From: Chitinophaga pinensis
Lineage (GTDB): Bacteria > Bacteroidota > Bacteroidia > NS11-12g > UBA955
DNA: 35,856 nt
Direction: 5' to 3'
Assembly (NCBI GenBank): GCA_945865625.1
Contig: CAMBFD010000002.1
Coordinates: 1-35,856, forward strand
The position numbers and the translations under genes were made by a program. Each line of letters begins with the position of its first letter. Within the stretch, counting starts at the first letter, position 1. The notes below the pieces were generated by a model, which had not been told where the DNA came from, ran no database searches, and worked only from the letters and a program-made list of their open reading frames with translations. Of the stretch, positions 18,242 through 30,795 are shown piece by piece.

Positions 18242-18970
18242 ATGCAGTATTTATCGCAACTCGATTTAAGCAAAGTGCTTTTTTTAGATATCGAAACAGT
18301 TCCAATGGAATCGAGTTTCTCTAATTTATCGCCAGCTTGGCAAAAATTATGGGAGAAAAAGTCGAAATCGTTAATCAAAGAAGATATAACGCCATCAGAT
18401 ATTTACGACCGTTCGGCAATATATGCTGAATTTGGAAAGATTGTTTGTATTGGAGTTGGTTTAATTACGGGACATCCCTCGGAACCCAAACTTAGGTTAA
18501 AGTCGTTTTTTGGACACGATGAAAAAAAGATCCTAGAAGATTTTGCTCAGCTTTTAAATGGGCATTTTGGAACTGATCGCAACCGATTGTGTGCTCACAA
18601 TGGCAAGGAATTTGATTTTCCATACATTGCAAGAAGAATGCTAATTCACGGCATTAAAATTCCCCTTTTGCTCGACAATGCGGGCAAAAAACCTTGGGAA
18701 ATAAATAACTTAGATACAATGGAATTATGGAAATTTGGCGATTTTAAAAGTTTTGTTTCACTGAATTTATTAGCAAATTTGTTCGATATCCCAACCCCAA
18801 AAGACGATATCGATGGAAGCATGGTTGCTGACGTCTATTATAGAGAAAAAGACCTCAATAGAATTGCTGTTTATTGCAATAAAGATGTAATTACATTGGT
18901 TCAAGTATTGCTAAAACTCATGAATAAAGTCACCATTCCAGAAGAAGATATTTTATTTCCTGATACATAA
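18242..18970 (+). CDS. Predicted 3'-5' exonuclease, PolB-exonuclease-like (DEDDy)
   Basis: Soluble DnaQ-fold exonuclease of the PolB-exonuclease-like group (DNA_pol_B_exo2 type), 242 residues. Exo I is LFLDIETVPM near residue 15, with D and E as metal ligands. Exo II is CAHNGKEFDFPYI near residue 120. Exo III is AVYCNKDVITL near 215, where the YxxxD spacing places it in the DEDDy class. The region between motifs I and II (LSPAWQKLWEKK, YAEFGKIVCIGVG) is typical of the stand-alone Bacteroidetes proteins. No polymerase domain is attached, and the neighbours give no pathway. The substrate, DNA or RNA, is not known. Confidence 0.85.
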   Translation: MQYLSQLDLSKVLFLDIETVPMESSFSNLSPAWQKLWEKKSKSLIKEDITPSDIYDRSAIYAEFGKIVCIGVGLITGHPSEPKLRLKSFFGHDEKKILEDFAQLLNGHFGTDRNRLCAHNGKEFDFPYIARRMLIHGIKIPLLLDNAGKKPWEINNLDTMELWKFGDFKSFVSLNLLANLFDIPTPKDDIDGSMVADVYYREKDLNRIAVYCNKDVITLVQVLLKLMNKVTIPEEDILFPDT

Positions 18971-21208: not shown

Positions 21209-23437
21209 ATGCAACAGAATAGTGTATCACTTATTGATCAAGCCAAACAATTGGGCTTGTTGGAAGAAGAATTTCATAAAATCTGCGAAATTCTTGGCCG
21301 TGAACCTAACTTCACAGAATTGTCTATTTATTCAGTTATGTGGAGCGAACATTGTAGTTATAAAAACTCAATTACATGGTTGAAAACCTTGCCTAAAAGT
21401 GGCACTAAAATGTTGGCTGAAGCCGGTGAAGAAAACGCTGGTTTAGTAGATATAGGCGATGGACTTGCTTGTTGTTTCAAAATTGAAAGTCATAACCATC
21501 CCTCCGCTATAGAACCTTATCAAGGAGCTGCAACCGGAGTTGGTGGAATCAATAGAGATATCTTTTCAATGGGCGCTCGACCTATTGCACAATTAAATTC
21601 ATTGCGCTTTGGAAATATCAACTCAGATAGGACAAAATGGTTGGTTAAAGGTGTTGTAAAAGGGATTGGCGATTATGGAAATGCATTTGGCATTCCTACT
21701 GTTGGTGGTGAAGTGTATTTCGACGATTGCTACGAGCAAAATAACCTTGTGAACGCAATGAGTGTGGGTATCGTTGGAGTAGGGAAAAGTATATCTGCCG
21801 GTGCTGGACCTGCTGGAAATCCTGTTTATATTTTTGGGTCTGCCACAGGAAAAGATGGAATTCACGGTGCTGCTTTTGCCTCTAAAGATATGAGCGAAGA
21901 TAGCATCAACGATTTGCCTTCAGTGCAAGTGGGTGATCCTTTCTGGGAGAAGTTAATCCTAGAAGCTTCTATGGAAATTATTGAAACCAATGCCGTTGTT
22001 GGTATGCAAGATATGGGTGCTGCCGGTATTACCTGTAGTACGAGCGAAATGAGTGCAAAAACTGATGTGGGAATGGATATTCACTTAGATAAAGTTCCTA
22101 TGCGTCAACAAGACATGAAAGGATGGGAACTTTTGTTAAGCGAAAGCCAAGAACGTATGTTGGTGATTATTGAAAAAGGGAGAGAAAAAGAATTAGAAGT
22201 CATTTTTGAGAAATGGGATTTAACCTATGCTCAAATTGGATTGGTTACTGATACAAAACATGTTCGATATTTTATGAATGGTGTTTTAGAAGCCGATATC
22301 CCTGCTGAATCTTTGGTTTTAGGTGGCGGCGCTCCTGTATATAAAAGAACATGGACAACCCCTACATATTTTGCAGAAATAGAGAAATTTAATTTAGATT
22401 CTATTCAAGATCTTACTTTAGAGGAAGCAAAATCTGTTGCCCTAAAACTTGCTGCCGAACCAAACATTGCAAGTAAAAAGTGGATTTACGAGCAATACGA
22501 TAGCATGGTAGGAACAGTGAATCAATCAACAAACCTTCCTTCTGATGCATCTGTTGTAAAAGTAAAAGGAACAAATAAAAGTCTAGCATTGACTGTTGAT
22601 TGCAATAGCCGTTATGTGCATGCAAATCCAAATATAGGAACTCAAATTGCAGTTTCTGAAGCGGCAAGAAACATTCGTTGCACCGGTGGTGTGCCAACTG
22701 CTATTACAAATTGCTTAAACTTTGGTAACCCTTATAATGAAGAAGTATATTTTCAATTTAAATCTGCCATTGAAGGGATGAGTGAAGCTTGTAGGAAATT
22801 CGATACCCCTGTAACAGGTGGTAACGTAAGTTTTTACAATCAAAGCACATCAGGTCAGGCAGTTTATCCAACCCCAACAATTGGGATGGTTGGAATTATT
22901 GAAAAACCGGAACACAGAATGAGTTTAAACTTCAAAAACGAGGGTGATGCAATTTTATTAATTGGTGAAGCTCAAAACGATTTAGGTTGCTCTCAATATC
23001 TTGCTAAAATTAAAGGGGTGGCTCTTTCTAATTGTCCTCATTTTGATTTAGATGTTGAATTCAACTTGCATCAGTTATTAGAGAAACTTTCACACAATCA
23101 AATGGCGACAAGCGTTCACGATGTGAGTGAAGGTGGATTATTCATCACTTGCTTAGAAAGTGCGATGCATGACAACTTAGGATTCGAAATTTGCACCGAC
23201 CAACGTTATCGTAATGATGCTTGGTTGTTTGGAGAATCACAATCTAGAGTTGTGATTTCTGTGAATCCAAATCATATTGTTGACATTCAAACATTGGCCG
23301 CTCAATTTAATTTGCCTGTTACCCATATTGGTACTGTAACCGCTGGTGAAATTGGCATCAATGGCGAAAAATTTGCAACTGTGACTCAAATGGCAGATAT
23401 TTATAATTCTGCAATTGCCAATAAAATGACCGCTTAA
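21209..23437 (+). CDS. purL: Phosphoribosylformylglycinamidine synthase subunit PurL
   Basis: Catalyses the fourth step of de novo purine synthesis, ATP-dependent conversion of FGAR to FGAM, with ammonia supplied by PurQ and assembly helped by PurS. At 742 residues it is the short three-subunit form, not the approximately 1300-residue fused enzyme. Signatures include [11 protein letters not shown] near residue 43, the nucleotide-binding [20 protein letters not shown] near 91, the glycine-rich GVGGINRDI, and the second-half repeats TNCLNFGNP and [10 protein letters not shown]. Neither purQ nor purS is in the window. The stop overlaps the next start as TAATG, implying translational coupling with the FAD oxidoreductase. 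Confidence 0.96.
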
Positions 23438-24567
23438 TGGCTATTCCAGTTAGCTTTTGGGAACAAAAATGGGCTGAGAAAGCAGATATAGTTGTTGTTG
23501 GAGCTGGCTTGGTTGGATTACAATCGGCAATTAAACTAAAACTCAAGTTTCAACACCGCAAAGTTTGGGTGGTTGAAAGTGCTACTTTAGGCAGTCCTGC
23601 CAGCCTAAGAAATGCAGGATTTGCCTGTTTTGGAAGCTTAGGAGAAATTCTTGACGACGCCAATAATATTGGCTTAGAAAACGCTTTGTTACTTTATGAA
23701 AATAGGTATACCGGGTTCTTGAAATTGAAAGAAACCTACGGCGAAACCAAAATTGGGTATGAAAATACTGGTGGATATGAAATCTTCAAATCCAATGAGG
23801 CTTCGATATTTGAAAACATCGCCGCAAACATTGATTCGGTGAATGAAAAACTTTTAAATGTTCATCAACAAACTGCATTTCAACTGAAAAAGACCGCTGC
23901 ACTTGGGATGAATGTTTTTGAAACAGCCATCTATTCTCCACTCGAAGGAGCGATTCAATCTCATTTACTTTACGAATCCATCAGAAATCATGCTTTGTCG
24001 CTGGGTATTGAAATATTTTCTGGTTTTCAAGTTCAGAACATTGAACAGTTAGATTCTCAAAAATGGGAAATTTTGTTTTCTAATTCAAATGTAAAGTTCG
24101 TTGCTTCTGAATTAATCATTTGCACAAATGGATTTACAAAACAAATATTGCCCGATATTGAAGTTTATCCGGCGAGAGGACAAGTATTGGTTACAGAAGC
24201 AATTCCAACGCTGCCTTTTAGAGGGATTTTCCATTACGACAAAGGGTACATTTATTTTAGAAGTCTTGGAACCCGAATTTTAATTGGGGGCGCAAGAAAT
24301 ATTGATTTTGACGGAGAGCAAGTGATGGATCAAAATACTTCTGAAAATATTGTAAATCATCTGAAACAAGTCATTACAGAGGTGATCGTCCCTGGTATTG
24401 AGCCTAAGATCGATTATCAATGGGCCGGGACGATGGGAATGGCTGCAGATCGTCAGCCAATCATCCAAAAAATTCAACCACATCTTCATTGTTGTGTAAG
24501 AATGGGTGGAATGGGTGTTGCTTTAAGTGCAACTGCATCCGAAAAATTGGTAAATTTGATTGATTAA
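23437..24567 (+). CDS. FAD-dependent oxidoreductase, DAO family
   Basis: Soluble flavoprotein of 376 residues related to glycine/D-amino-acid oxidases and dehydrogenases (DAO fold). The N-terminal Rossmann motif is VVVGAGLVGLQSA near residues 20-32, followed by an acidic strand end VWVVES that would bind the FAD ribose. A conserved RNAGFACFG segment lies near residue 56. The C-terminal part has YPARGQVLVTE, FHYDKGYIYFR, LIGGARN and the closing flavin motif GMGGMGVALSATASEKL. The enzyme presumably oxidises an amine or amino acid, but the substrate cannot be read. Its start overlaps the purL stop (TAATG). No link between this family and purine synthesis is established; co-expression may be just operon packing. 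Confidence 0.85.
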   Translation: MAIPVSFWEQKWAEKADIVVVGAGLVGLQSAIKLKLKFQHRKVWVVESATLGSPASLRNAGFACFGSLGEILDDANNIGLENALLLYENRYTGFLKLKETYGETKIGYENTGGYEIFKSNEASIFENIAANIDSVNEKLLNVHQQTAFQLKKTAALGMNVFETAIYSPLEGAIQSHLLYESIRNHALSLGIEIFSGFQVQNIEQLDSQKWEILFSNSNVKFVASELIICTNGFTKQILPDIEVYPARGQVLVTEAIPTLPFRGIFHYDKGYIYFRSLGTRILIGGARNIDFDGEQVMDQNTSENIVNHLKQVITEVIVPGIEPKIDYQWAGTMGMAADRQPIIQKIQPHLHCCVRMGGMGVALSATASEKLVNLID

Positions 24568-24593
24568 GTGTATTTTTACCTTAATTATTTTTT

Positions 24594-25139
24594 ATGACTC
24601 TTAAAAACTGTTTTAAATTTATATTGATTTTCACTTTGTGCTTGAACATGAGTGACCTTTTTGCTCAAGCTAAACCCGTTTCATCATCCACGAATAAAAC
24701 TGTAACTACAAAGTCAAAATCCCTCAAAAAGAAAAAGAAAAAAATTACACCAGCTCCAGTGGTAGAGGAGGAAATTGATATTGGCCAAGGCGACACTGCA
24801 GTCATCGGAAAAACGTCTTTGGCGGAGTTTGTGAATTTAGATATTTACAAAAGAACACGCTGGGATCCGGATGCTCCGGCCTACGATACTGCTACTGGAA
24901 ATGGGTTTTATCAATCATTTTTCAAAGGCGATTACGATGCAGCTGAACTTCCGGCATTATATGTAGGTCGTAAGTTTGTCATTTTAGGCGTTGAAATTTT
25001 GAAAAATAAAAATACGGGCAAAGACATGAACATTATGTATTTGCACGGTGATGTGGCGAATTCTGTAATTTGGGTTGATTTTGATAGGGCAGTTGAAACC
25101 AAAGAAATATCATTCATTCCAGCTAAACGTAAAAAATAA
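24594..25139 (+). CDS. Unrecognised secreted protein with Lys-rich linker
   Basis: I do not recognise this 181-residue protein. It has a clear signal peptide (hydrophobic residues about 8-22, ending LFAQA) and then a Ser/Thr/Lys stretch with a run of six lysines near residues 45-52, followed by an acidic patch (VVEEEID). The C-terminal about 110 residues look like one small folded domain with many aromatic residues (RTRWDPDAPAYDTATG, NGFYQSFFKGDYDAAELP, MNIMYLHGDVANSVIWVDFD). No lipobox and no sorting domain are seen. Its stop overlaps the PolX start as TAATG, and it starts 26 bases after the FAD oxidoreductase. Exported, probably periplasmic. No function is offered. Confidence 0.75.
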   Translation: MTLKNCFKFILIFTLCLNMSDLFAQAKPVSSSTNKTVTTKSKSLKKKKKKITPAPVVEEEIDIGQGDTAVIGKTSLAEFVNLDIYKRTRWDPDAPAYDTATGNGFYQSFFKGDYDAAELPALYVGRKFVILGVEILKNKNTGKDMNIMYLHGDVANSVIWVDFDRAVETKEISFIPAKRKK

Positions 25140-26806
25140 TGTTAGATAACGCGGCTGTTTTATCGAAACTCAATTTATTTGCAAAATTGAGTGAGTTGCA
25201 CGACGAAAATCCCTTTAAATATAAGTCGTTCACAACCGCTGCCTTCAATTTGAAGAAAATTAAGGAATCGTTCTTGGAACTTGATGACCATACGTTATCA
25301 GCAGTTCCTGGAGTTGGTAAATCGGTTTTGGAAGCCATTCGCAGTATCCTATCTAGTGGGAGTTTTTCAGCCTTAGATTCGTGTGTTGAAAAAACACCCT
25401 CTGGTGTTGTTGACTTGTTAAATATTAAAGGATTAGGCCCTAAAAAGGTAAAAATTATTTGGGAAGAAATTGGCATTGATAATGTGAGTGATCTTTTGGA
25501 TGCTTGCCGGCAGAATCGATTGGTTGAAACGAAAGGTTTCGGATTGAAAACACAAGCAGAAATCATTAAATCCATTGAGTTCTCATTGAGTGCAAAAGGC
25601 AATTGGCATTATGCGCGATTGCTCGATTTATGTAATTCATTTAAAGCCGATTTGAAATCGATATTTACAGGTTTTCAAGTTGAATTTTCAGGTGATTTTC
25701 GACGTTGTGTGCCAACGGTGAATCATTTGCTTTGCATCACTACAATTGATTTGATTGAACTTGTAGAGTATTTAGAATCTCAAGAAATAGAAGTTGAAGT
25801 AAATGATGATGAAATCTCTTTTCTTTTTGAGGGACAAATACCTTTTTCAATGATTTGTACCGATTCACTTACATTCAATCGGGTGTTATTTGAGACCACC
25901 GGAAATTCGGAACATTTAAAATTGATTGGTTACGAACAAAAAGATTCCTGGAGTTTTACGAACGAAGAAGATTTTTATAAAACAAAGCAATTGCCGTTTA
26001 TCATCCCTGAACAACGCGAAGGACTCGATGAGTTGGAATACAATAAAGTTAATCAACATTTTATTGAATATGGTCAACTTAAAGGTGTATTGCACAATCA
26101 TACCAATTATAGTGATGGATTAAATACCTTGAAGGAAATGGCAGAATATGCGAAATCGCAGAATTATCAATATTTAGGCGTTTGCGACCATTCAAAATCT
26201 GCTGGCTATGCCAGAGGATTAGACGAGGATCGTGTTTTTCAACAAATGCATGAGATTGATGAATTAAATGCAAAGCTGTTTCCATTTAAAATTTTCAAAG
26301 GCATTGAAAGCGATATTCTTTCCGACGGAAGTTTAGATTACTCGGATAATGTTTTGGCAAAATTTGATTTTGTGGTTGCTTCTGTGCATTCTAATTTAAC
26401 AATGTCTGAAGATAAGGCCAACGAGCGTTTGTTGAAGGCCATTGAAAACCCATATACCACAATTTTAGGACATCCAACAGGGAGATTGTTGTTAATGAGA
26501 TCTGGATATCCAATCGATCACCGAAGAATCATTGATGCTTGTGCGGAAAATGGTGTTGTGATTGAATTAAATGCCCATCCATATCGGTTAGATATCGATT
26601 GGAAGTGGATTCAATATGCGCAAAGCAATGGTGTTAAAATAAGTATCAACCCCGATGCACATGAAAAAATGGGCTATCACGATATGTATTTTGGAACATT
26701 GGCTGCCAGAAAGGGCGGTTTGTTAACCAAGAACACTCTGAATTCATTGAATCTTCAGGAATTTGAAGATTTCCTTTCAAAAAGACGATCGTTAAAAAAT
26801 ATTTAA
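25139..26806 (+). CDS. polX: PolX-family protein with degenerate polymerase site and intact PHP domain
   Basis: Protein of 555 residues with the full PolX layout: helical lyase-like N-terminus with helix-hairpin-helix motifs (VPGVGKSV near 57, IKGLGPKKV near 95), a Pol-beta-like nucleotidyltransferase region (about 120-290) and a C-terminal PHP phosphoesterase (about 313-555). In PolX the palm signature is GSxRRGxxTxGDxD. Here positions 185-198 read GDFRRCVPTVNHLL, so both catalytic aspartates are replaced (H196, L198), and the third aspartate of the usual VDLR strand aligns with S237. The PHP metal ligands all appear intact: H319, H321, D350, H351, E390, H417, H445, D506, H508. It should therefore be a nuclease without polymerase activity. 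It is coupled by TAATG to the upstream secreted protein and followed directly by the GT9 gene. Confidence 0.85.
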   Translation: MLDNAAVLSKLNLFAKLSELHDENPFKYKSFTTAAFNLKKIKESFLELDDHTLSAVPGVGKSVLEAIRSILSSGSFSALDSCVEKTPSGVVDLLNIKGLGPKKVKIIWEEIGIDNVSDLLDACRQNRLVETKGFGLKTQAEIIKSIEFSLSAKGNWHYARLLDLCNSFKADLKSIFTGFQVEFSGDFRRCVPTVNHLLCITTIDLIELVEYLESQEIEVEVNDDEISFLFEGQIPFSMICTDSLTFNRVLFETTGNSEHLKLIGYEQKDSWSFTNEEDFYKTKQLPFIIPEQREGLDELEYNKVNQHFIEYGQLKGVLHNHTNYSDGLNTLKEMAEYAKSQNYQYLGVCDHSKSAGYARGLDEDRVFQQMHEIDELNAKLFPFKIFKGIESDILSDGSLDYSDNVLAKFDFVVASVHSNLTMSEDKANERLLKAIENPYTTILGHPTGRLLLMRSGYPIDHRRIIDACAENGVVIELNAHPYRLDIDWKWIQYAQSNGVKISINPDAHEKMGYHDMYFGTLAARKGGLLTKNTLNSLNLQEFEDFLSKRRSLKNI

Positions 26807-27772
26807 ATGCAGGAAATTTTAGTGATCCGATTTAGTTCAATTGGCGACATTTTATTATGTACGCCGGTTTTTCGTTTGTTGAAATTGAAATTCCCTGATG
26901 CCAAAATTACTTTCCTGACAAAACATAAATTTCGAGGTATTTTGGAGGGAAATAAGCATATCAATCGAATTTTAGCTTGGGACAATCTTGCTGACCGTAA
27001 GGAATTGTCAAATATTTCCTTCGATGCGATTGTAGATTTGCATTCCAATTTGAGGAGTTTTATTGCCAAATTGCGTTTTTGGAATGTGCCTCGAACATCC
27101 CTCAATAAAGAAAATTTAAATAAATTTTTATTTACGCTTACAAAATGGAAACGGTTTGAAGTTTCTTCAATTGTAGACAGATATGTTGAAACATTAAAGG
27201 TTTGGAACATTGTAAACGACAATGGTGGTTTAGATTATGAGGGACAAGCAAGTGAAGTTGGATTAGAAGAAGTAGGCAAGTATGTTGCAATTGTGCTTGG
27301 TGGAACGTACACCACGAAGCGAATTCCGCAAAATAAATTGGAAGAATTATTTGCAGAAATGCAAAAAACTAAGTTTGTTCTCATTGGAGGGAAAGAAGAG
27401 CTCGAACTAGGAAATTTGTTGGTTGAAAAATATAAGGGTAGGGTAATTTCGAAGTGTGGACAATTGAGCATCAATGAAAGTGCAGCTGTATTGAAATGTT
27501 CGGAAATAGTCATTGCCGGAGATACGGGTATGGCCCATATTGCTGCGGCTTTAGGAAAGCCATTGGCTCTAATTTGGGGAAATACAGATAGGGGTTATGG
27601 CATGTCGCCAGTACCCAAACCAGGTGTTGAATTGAAACATTTTGAGGTTGAGGGACTAGGGTGTAGGCCATGTTCAAAGTTGGGATTTGGTGAGTGTCCT
27701 AAGCAACATTTTAAGTGCATGGAAGCACAAAAAATGGAAGATGTTATGCAATTCGCCAAAAAATATTTGTAA
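26807..27772 (+). CDS. Glycosyltransferase family 9 (heptosyltransferase-like)
   Basis: Cytoplasmic-face GT-B glycosyltransferase of family GT9, 321 residues, the group that adds heptose or related sugars to the lipopolysaccharide core. The N-terminal domain opens with ILVIRFSSIGDILLCTPV, the family hallmark, and TKHKFRGILEGN. The C-terminal domain has VLGGTYTTKRIP and the donor-binding VIAGDTGMAHIAAALGKPL near 230-250. A cysteine-bearing end (GCRPCSKLGFGECPKQHFKC, about 284-303) is common in the family. The start codon comes immediately after the PolX stop. The exact sugar donor and acceptor are unknown, and no other LPS genes are adjacent. Confidence 0.9.
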   Translation: MQEILVIRFSSIGDILLCTPVFRLLKLKFPDAKITFLTKHKFRGILEGNKHINRILAWDNLADRKELSNISFDAIVDLHSNLRSFIAKLRFWNVPRTSLNKENLNKFLFTLTKWKRFEVSSIVDRYVETLKVWNIVNDNGGLDYEGQASEVGLEEVGKYVAIVLGGTYTTKRIPQNKLEELFAEMQKTKFVLIGGKEELELGNLLVEKYKGRVISKCGQLSINESAAVLKCSEIVIAGDTGMAHIAAALGKPLALIWGNTDRGYGMSPVPKPGVELKHFEVEGLGCRPCSKLGFGECPKQHFKCMEAQKMEDVMQFAKKYL

Positions 27773-27855
27773 TCGCCACTAAAAATAGCGAAAAAACATA
27801 CTTTTTTTGCTTATTTTCGCAACCCAAATAAATCTATAGTTAGAATAATTTCACA

Positions 27856-30795
27856 ATGAAAAGTAATAAATCAATCGTAATTTTTTCAGTTGTATTGGCC
27901 TTTGCGTGCTTATATCAATTGTCATTTACATTTAAGGCGAAGAGTTTTGAGAGTGAAGCACATGCGTTTGCTGCAAAGAAGACCAAAACTGGTGAAAATG
28001 AAAAAGATGCTTATCGTAGATACATCGATAGCTTAGGAAACAAAGAGTATTACAACTTATTGGGAATCGTAGGTTACACCTATTTCGAATGTAAGCAAAA
28101 AGAGATCAATTTAGGTCTTGACTTGCGTGGTGGTATGAACGTAACCTTGGAAGTAGAAAAAGATGCGATTGTAAAAGTATTGGCTAATGATTCAAAAGAT
28201 GCGGATCTTAACAAAGCATGTAAAATTGCAGATGATGCGGTTATAAAGCAGGGCGCTGATTATGTAGACGCTTTTGTTACTGCATTTAAAGAGATTGCTC
28301 CAAATAGGAACATGGCTGTATTGTTTGTGAAAGGAAACAATTCAGTGATTCAACAAAATAGCAGTCAAACTGAAGTCGTAAATTACTTACGGTCTTCTAT
28401 TAATACTGCCGTTGCCAACGTTAAGTCGGTTGTTGAAAAACGTATTAACCAAGCAAACGTAACTCAACCAGTTGTTCAAATTGTTGAAGGTGGTAGAATT
28501 AGCGTTGAACTTCCGGGCGTAGACAACCCACGCCGTATGGAAGATTTGGTAGAAAAGAGTGCAAAATTAGAATTCTTTGAAGTGTATGGTGGATTAGAAG
28601 GTGTTAAAATTTTAAACAATTTGGTGAAGGCCTCTACCTTGGCTTCTGCTGATGTTATAGATACAGCTTCAAATGATACCAATGCAAAAATTGATTCATC
28701 AGTTAAAACAACTGCAAAAACATCGGGTTCTCAAAAAAGCGTTTTAGCTTCTATTTTGAAACCATTTGGTAAAGGACAAGGATCTTCAATTTGCACAATC
28801 AAAGGAATTAACCGTGAGAAATTATTGAAAATATTGTCAGAGCAAAAATTCCAATCAATTCTTGAACCATCTGTGAAAGTTGCATTCAGTGCAAAACCAA
28901 TGGATTATGATGAAACTGGAAAAGTTTTAACAAACTCTGATGATTATTTCGTTTATTTCCTCAAACGAGATAGAGATGGCAATGCTGCTCTGTCTTCGGA
29001 AGAAGAAAATATCATTACCGATGCGCGCGAGAATACAAATCAAACAGGTCAGTTGGAAGTTTCTATGGAAATGACATCAACTGCAGCTTCTCGTTGGGCT
29101 CAAGTAACTGGTGCAAATATTGGTAAATTTATTGCAATTGCCCTTGATGACAGGGTTTATACTGCTCCAAGCGTGAATCAAAAAATTAGCGGTGGTAACA
29201 GTCAAATTACCGGTAATTTCGATATTCGTGAAGCTCAAGATTTAGCAAACGTATTGAAAGCTGGTAAATTACCTGCTCCTGCTAGAATCGTTGCGAGTGA
29301 AGTTGTTGGCCCTTCTTTAGGAGAGGCTTCAATTGCTCAAGGTTTTATGGCCTTAATTTTAGGTTTCCTCTCAGTTGTTGTATTCATGGTGGTATACTAT
29401 AATAGAGCTGGTTGGATTTCTATTGTTGCAGTATTAGGAAACGTATTTTTAATTATGGGTGTATTGTCGAGCTTAGGTGCTGCATTAACACTTCCTGGTA
29501 TGGCCGGTATCATCTTAACCATTGGTATGGCCGTTGACGCAAACGTGTTGATTTACGAACGTATCAAAGATGAGTTGGCACAAGGTAAAGCTATGAAATC
29601 TGCAATTAACGAAGGTTTCAAACACGCTTTAAGTGCAATTATTGACTCAAATATTACCCACTTATTGGCAGGTTTCATTTTAACATTCACAGGTGCTGGT
29701 CCAGTTTATGGTTTCGCTATCATCTTGGTGATTGGTATCTTTAGTTCTTTATTCACAGCGTTGTTTATCACTCGATTGTTGTTAGATAGAAGAGCTGATA
29801 AAGGACATGACATCAAGTTTGGATTTGCTTGGAACGATAATTTCCTAAAAGGTAAGAATATTGATTGGGTTAAAAATAGAAAGAAGTATTATTTGTTTTC
29901 AACTGTAATTATAGTTATTGGGGTGATTGCTTTTGTTGCTAAAGGTGGAATTTCAACAGGTATTGACTTTAAAGGAGGTAACTCATTTACAATTCAATTT
30001 AACCCAAGTGAAGAATATAAAACGGATCAAATTAAAGAAGCTTTAGACAAAGGTTTAAAAGAGTCGAGCAATGAAGTTAAAACTTTTGGTTCTGAAGGAC
30101 AATACAAAATATTAACAACATACTTGTTAAACGAGCAAGGTAAAGAAAGCAAAGCGAAAGTTGAAGCTGATTTATTAAAAGCTTTGTCTGGTTTTGAGTT
30201 AATTAAAAACAAAGATGGTGAAGGACCAGTTTTACAAGTTTCTAACGTTACCCCAACCATTGCAACTGAAATTAGAAATAAATCTGGTTTCTTAGTGATA
30301 TTAACCGTTGTAGGTATCTTCTTATTCTTGGTATTCCGATTCAGAAGTATTGCTTACGGTATTGGCGCTGCTATTTCATTGATACATGATTTGGCTTTGG
30401 TATTGTCGGTTTATGCAATTGTTGATGGTTATGTTCCATTCGCAACTGAATTTGACCAACATTTAATTGCGGCTTTGTTAACTTTATTGGGTTACTCAAT
30501 TAACGATACGGTAATTGTATTTGACCGTATTCGTGAATTCTTAACTTCTAAGCGTTCAGATAAAGACGATACCGTTATGATTAACATGGCGTTAAATGAT
30601 ACTTTAAGTAGAACAATCATTACATCATTAACCGTATTCGTGGTTTGTGTAATTCTCTTCTTATTTGGTGGTGATGCTTTGAAGAACTTCTCATTCGCAA
30701 TGCTTATTGGTGTTGTCATTGGTACTTACTCTTCTTTGTGTATTGCAACTCCAATTGTTGTAGATATCACTAACAAAAAGAAAAAAAATAAATAA
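27856..30795 (+). CDS. secDF: Fused protein translocase subunit SecDF
   Basis: Inner-membrane RND-type protein of 979 residues that uses the proton gradient to help pull secreted proteins out of SecYEG. SecD and SecF are fused in one chain, as is general in Bacteroidetes. The SecD part shows INLGLDLRGGMNVTLEVE near residue 86, a periplasmic P1 domain with VEKRINQANVTQPVV and VELPGV near 200-220, a low-complexity Ser/Thr/Lys insert near 265-300, and six helices starting at about 490 with IILTIGMAVDANVLIYERIK. The SecF part begins around 675, with GISTGIDFKGGNSFTIQF, and ends with the matching GYSINDTVIVFDRIRE and a lysine-rich tail. A TATTTTCG sequence at 27812, one mismatch from TAnnTTTG, could be its promoter. 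A strong terminator follows. Confidence 0.95.
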   Translation: MKSNKSIVIFSVVLAFACLYQLSFTFKAKSFESEAHAFAAKKTKTGENEKDAYRRYIDSLGNKEYYNLLGIVGYTYFECKQKEINLGLDLRGGMNVTLEVEKDAIVKVLANDSKDADLNKACKIADDAVIKQGADYVDAFVTAFKEIAPNRNMAVLFVKGNNSVIQQNSSQTEVVNYLRSSINTAVANVKSVVEKRINQANVTQPVVQIVEGGRISVELPGVDNPRRMEDLVEKSAKLEFFEVYGGLEGVKILNNLVKASTLASADVIDTASNDTNAKIDSSVKTTAKTSGSQKSVLASILKPFGKGQGSSICTIKGINREKLLKILSEQKFQSILEPSVKVAFSAKPMDYDETGKVLTNSDDYFVYFLKRDRDGNAALSSEEENIITDARENTNQTGQLEVSMEMTSTAASRWAQVTGANIGKFIAIALDDRVYTAPSVNQKISGGNSQITGNFDIREAQDLANVLKAGKLPAPARIVASEVVGPSLGEASIAQGFMALILGFLSVVVFMVVYYNRAGWISIVAVLGNVFLIMGVLSSLGAALTLPGMAGIILTIGMAVDANVLIYERIKDELAQGKAMKSAINEGFKHALSAIIDSNITHLLAGFILTFTGAGPVYGFAIILVIGIFSSLFTALFITRLLLDRRADKGHDIKFGFAWNDNFLKGKNIDWVKNRKKYYLFSTVIIVIGVIAFVAKGGISTGIDFKGGNSFTIQFNPSEEYKTDQIKEALDKGLKESSNEVKTFGSEGQYKILTTYLLNEQGKESKAKVEADLLKALSGFELIKNKDGEGPVLQVSNVTPTIATEIRNKSGFLVILTVVGIFLFLVFRFRSIAYGIGAAISLIHDLALVLSVYAIVDGYVPFATEFDQHLIAALLTLLGYSINDTVIVFDRIREFLTSKRSDKDDTVMINMALNDTLSRTIITSLTVFVVCVILFLFGGDALKNFSFAMLIGVVIGTYSSLCIATPIVVDITNKKKKNK

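Follow-up and report, generated by a model that had tools for sequence, protein, structure and literature searches.

The PolX protein encoded in the window, by which we mean the whole analysed stretch of 35,856 nucleotides, is in all likelihood a noncanonical PolX of the kind found in Bacteroidetes and Deinococcus. Judging from its sequence, from predicted models and from analogy with characterized relatives, it would synthesize no DNA, its PHP nuclease would act as a Mn-dependent 3′-5′ exonuclease, and its polymerase part would hold the DNA. According to Prostova et al. (2022; PMC9226535), who defined the noncanonical PolXs, these proteins constitute 27.5% of prokaryotic PolXs and have lost one to three of the catalytic aspartates, in 302 variants. 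Most of them fall into one cluster composed mainly of Bacteroidetes and Deinococcus-Thermus; the dNTP site is degraded and often the fingers as well, deletions in the fingers and palm are frequent without being universal, and 98% of the altered proteins conserve the PHP motif (PMC9226535). The window protein shares with this group the altered triad, the degraded dNTP site, the shortened fingers and the conserved PHP and N-terminal parts, and it comes from the phylum of the main published cluster. It is an ordinary further member of the group described in 2022 and has the form that PolX usually takes in Bacteroidetes; the initial annotation had implied that a dead polymerase with an intact PHP domain was new, and that novelty does not hold (PMC9226535).

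The group is a clear case of a polymerase that has kept its nuclease and lost synthesis, a case already argued in 2022 and restated by a 2026 survey, which found the PHP site of PolX to be better conserved than the polymerase site (PMC12926913). The present lineage adds two observations. The triad varies from species to species even within a single genus whereas the PHP site stays constant, and PolX has been kept where the NHEJ genes to which it is often linked were not found.

Polymerase and nuclease sites

The open reading frame begins with ATG and encodes 555 amino acids with zero internal stops. The protein matched the NCBIfam PolX model NF006375 over its full length with 389.6 bits, below the cut-off of 426, and a Pfam scan of the protein returned HHH_8, HHH_5 and PHP and no match to the palm model. 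The closest solved relatives by sequence are the PolX proteins of Deinococcus radiodurans (PDB 2W9M; 3e-86) and Thermus thermophilus (about 8e-63). The genome encodes one copy of PolX, and a weak second match falls on a PHP stretch. The features of the gene and its neighbours are listed in Table 1.

Table 1. Coordinates in the window of the PolX gene, its domains and motifs, and the adjacent genes.
Feature	Position	Strand	Evidence
Noncanonical PolX gene, including stop codon	25139..26806	+	NCBIfam PolX NF006375, full length
N-terminal DNA-binding part (8-kDa and helix-hairpin-helix), residues 1-150	25139..25588	+	Pfam HHH_8 and HHH_5 above cut-off
Degenerate palm, residues 151-245	25589..25873	+	No Pfam palm match; model superposes on Pol beta palm
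Palm motif GDFRRCVPTVNHLL, residues 185-198, with H196 and L198 replacing two catalytic Asp	25691..25732	+	Alignment
S237, replacing the third catalytic Asp	25847..25849	+	Alignment
Linker and shortened fingers, residues 246-312; dNTP motif degraded to ETTGNSEHL at residues 252-260	25874..26074	+	Alignment
Intact PHP nuclease domain, residues 313-550	26075..26788	+	Pfam PHP; nine ligands, E476, R449/R454/N478/R483/K525
Small ORF directly upstream of PolX	24594..25139	+	Stop overlaps PolX start (TAATG); no Pfam match
Glycosyltransferase family 9 gene abutting the PolX stop	26807..27772	+	Pfam Glyco_transf_9; same order in relatives

The polymerase site was examined in an alignment of 107 PolX sequences of the phylum, including the window protein (four are duplicates, taken from another collection, of relatives already included), together with T. 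thermophilus PolX. In this alignment D198, D200 and D243 of T. thermophilus correspond to H196, L198 and S237, so that none of the three triad residues is acidic (HLS versus DDD); the palm motif reads GDFRRCVPTVNHLL, as the initial annotation gave it, and the loss of all three palm aspartates that it claimed is borne out. The site is equally altered and in frame in close relatives, namely L003/L026 (HIT, 92% identity) and L004-L006 (KME/KVE, 72%), and the altered palm is therefore no assembly error. The degradation of the dNTP pocket and fingers, absent from the initial annotation, can be added. The T. thermophilus motif YLTGSKAHS has become ETTGNSEHL, with Y258 changed to E, S262 to N, K263 to S and position 266 to L (T. 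thermophilus numbering); therefore, the steric gate, the Ser of the GS pair, the Lys and the base-contacting residue have all been lost. Between T. thermophilus positions 266 and 290 the window protein has 10 residues where the reference has 25, which makes the fingers about 15 residues shorter, and the span from the GS motif to YLTGS is 4 residues shorter (67 versus 71, counted between motifs and not by the domain limits of Prostova et al.). A palm in this condition would be unable to hold two catalytic metals or a dNTP, and we consequently expect no DNA synthesis by this protein.

At first glance, the polymerase site might have been rebuilt, with the metals held by acids elsewhere and a residual polymerase or transferase activity. 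The palm GS motif has become GD in the window protein (T. thermophilus S188 to D), and at this position (residues 185-186, 25691-25696) Glu or Asp takes the place of the Ser in 63% of the altered PolXs sampled in the phylum, which places an acid, D186 here, in the former triphosphate loop. Moreover, an early report attributed polymerase activity to D. radiodurans PolX (cited in PMC9226535). However, D186 has an acidic counterpart in only seven of 12 genus sequences, a conserved-acid check recovered no acid near the former triad that is both new and invariant in the altered PolXs, the dNTP pocket and fingers have been lost too, and purer preparations of the Deinococcus enzyme failed to reproduce the early activity (PMC9226535). 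We therefore consider a rebuilt polymerase site extremely unlikely, and a palm that has lost synthesis accounts better for the sequence.

The polymerase fold appears to have been kept, as the initial annotation proposed. The predicted model of the full-length protein, for which six sequences served as input, has a modest mean pLDDT of 64.4, and its best structural matches are the T. thermophilus PolX structures. A separate model of residues 1-310 reaches a mean pLDDT above 80 over residues 201-250, and its residues 157-261 superpose on the palm of human Pol beta with Z 12.6 and an rmsd of 2.1 over 101 residues; this predicted superposition indicates a palm fold kept despite the lost site. In a search for the Schiff-base lysine of a dRP-lyase, A66 was found to align with T. 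thermophilus K68, which we take to be the equivalent of Pol beta K72; this column is mostly non-lysine in DDD PolXs too and thus decides nothing about dRP-lyase activity.

The PHP site is intact, together with its DNA path. All nine ligands whose retention had been claimed (H319, H321, D350, H351, E390, H417, H445, D506 and H508) are confirmed by the alignment and are identical in all 107 sequences of the phylum, and E476, which by our own mapping is the Glu of the HHHEHHEDH consensus of Prostova et al., is present as well. In Bacillus subtilis PolX, mutations have shown that nuclease activity needs R469, R474, N498, R503 and K545 (PMC6616362). The counterparts in the window protein are R449, R454, N478, R483 and K525, with identical spacing; F440, a moderately conserved residue mapped by the same offset, is Leu.

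These features place the protein among the known systems. It shares with the canonical enzymes of T. thermophilus (PDB 3AU2) and B. subtilis the domain order 8 kDa, HHH, palm, fingers, PHP, and the PHP site, whereas in those enzymes the DDD triad and the dNTP motif are present, the fingers are of full length and DNA is synthesized. The D. radiodurans enzyme (PDB 2W9M), an exonuclease without polymerase activity, likewise has an altered triad (AEE), but it keeps two acidic triad residues and the window protein keeps none. The PolX-like proteins of Actinobacteria also combine a PolX-type PHP domain with the lack of a working polymerase; there, however, the polymerase region is entirely absent, and here it is kept as a fold (PMC12926913).

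Distribution and selection

PolX matches, a few of them only weak, were obtained in 133 of 296 genomes drawn from the phylum. Among the 108 aligned sequences, 25 (T. thermophilus included) have DDD, one has DDE, and the other 82 have lost between one and three of the acids, all three in 12 cases. The palm motifs of the phylum PolXs were mapped on a tree, a check that the initial annotation had proposed; the tree was computed without the palm and fingers columns and from a set that contained no Deinococcus sequences. The window protein falls into a clade of 50 rows (SH-aLRT 99) that holds the sampled members of its class, and all 50 are altered. The full-DDD proteins (L077, L079, L085, L087, L092-L107, L109-L111 and L113) belong to further families of this GTDB phylum that lie outside the class of the window. 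Prostova et al. found no DDD PolX among their non-redundant Bacteroidetes genomes (PMC9226535), and this discrepancy probably reflects how the phylum is drawn.

Within the genus the triad reads HLS, HIT, KME, KVE, RDV, KEV, SEV, KES, QEL or NEI, and such free variation is what a functionless site would show. The genus median dN is 0.64 in the palm and 0.18 in PHP, and the mean identities are 42% and 79%. Pairwise dN/dS is 0.02-0.07 in PHP, where estimable, and remains below 1 in the palm wherever it could be estimated; hence some constraint probably still acts on the palm fold. Between the window protein and L026 (92%), the codon changes in residues 181-270 comprise 10 nonsynonymous and 5 synonymous ones, and those in the remainder of the protein 34 and 91, respectively (Fisher p 0.006), a contrast that is suggestive only, as it concerns a single pair and a region chosen after looking. 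In the same pair synonymous changes are scarce in the palm core (25679-25948, residues 181-270) and high in residues 1-90 and 271-300, an unevenness that may be due to recombination.

These values also bear on whether the gene is simply decaying, with the eroded polymerase site a first step in the loss of the whole protein. In genome G007, of the same genus, PolX is split by an apparent frameshift with a stop into two overlapping frames (L022, L025), and no PolX match was obtained in the sampled sister family f2. However, the split in G007 may be an assembly error as well as a sign of a pseudogene, most of the family has an intact reading frame, and the low dN and dN/dS of PHP, its invariant ligands and the palm values below 1 all speak against decay. 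We regard gene decay as most improbable, and a nuclease maintained by selection beside a dead polymerase site is the reading that we retain.

Probable function, repair context and gene neighbourhood

A dead polymerase with an intact PHP nuclease and a retained fold fits every test that was run and has been shown biochemically for two Deinococcus members: the PolX proteins of D. radiodurans (AEE) and D. gobiensis perform no synthesis and have a strong Mn-dependent 3′-5′ exonuclease activity that is lost on mutation of PHP (PMC9226535). By analogy with these relatives, the window protein should likewise lack polymerase activity and be an active exonuclease, and its PHP domain is very probably a Mn-dependent 3′-5′ exonuclease acting on 3′ ends. 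In the mechanism that we propose, the palm, lacking metal ligands and a dNTP pocket, would contribute no synthesis; the 8-kDa/HHH and palm parts would bind gapped or frayed DNA and present it to the PHP site; and the PHP site would trim the 3′ end or clean it up so that another polymerase and a ligase could act. The retained palm fold and the 8-kDa/HHH part are thus most likely a DNA-holding scaffold for the PHP site. For the T. thermophilus enzyme, the polymerase core and PHP are reportedly both required for exonuclease activity, to judge from the title of a 2009 study by Nakane, and this requirement fits the scaffold idea.

The PHP domain may also cut at AP sites. The genome encodes proteins of the Exo_endo_phos (exonuclease III) superfamily, the best of 265 aa, and no match to the endonuclease IV family was obtained in it. 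PolX is therefore probably not the sole AP-site enzyme, and an AP-site role may be redundant with the exonuclease III-like proteins.

Noncanonical PolX has been linked statistically to NHEJ (PMC9226535). Here, searches of the genome and of 22 relatives recovered neither Ku nor a LigD polymerase domain, although the B. subtilis positive control was matched. The genus differs in this respect from the published group, and the NHEJ role proposed for noncanonical PolXs does not apply to it. It is not exceptional, however, because NHEJ is absent from about half of the PolX-bearing Bacteroidetes genomes (PMC9226535). That PolX serves in this genus in a repair or processing pathway so far not suggested for noncanonical PolXs, with a fast-evolving palm that has a lineage-specific binding role, is conceivable but rather unlikely.

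PHP domains are also found in phosphatases, and the domain might have moved to another substrate, such as a sugar phosphate or small phosphoester tied to the neighbouring glycosyltransferase, with no action on DNA. The order FAD-oxidoreductase, small ORF, PolX, glycosyltransferase family 9 (GT9), SecDF (23437-30795) is common to most genomes of the family, PolX and GT9 being separated by 4-32 nt, and this tight linkage favours such a move. However, conservation extends to the HHH DNA-binding parts and to the basic path by which DNA enters the PHP site, the metal ligands are those of PolX nucleases, and tested relatives cut DNA (PMC9226535). A change of substrate is therefore very unlikely, and the preferred reading remains a nuclease acting on DNA 3′ ends. 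The conserved neighbourhood may be mere operon history; the PolX-GT9 pair also occurs in the Sphingobacteriaceae sequence L030 and in L036, and the small ORF beside PolX is kept in most of the family. At 18242-18970, some 7 kb upstream of PolX, the window encodes a predicted 3′-5′ exonuclease related to the exonuclease domain of PolB (Pfam DNA_pol_B_exo2).
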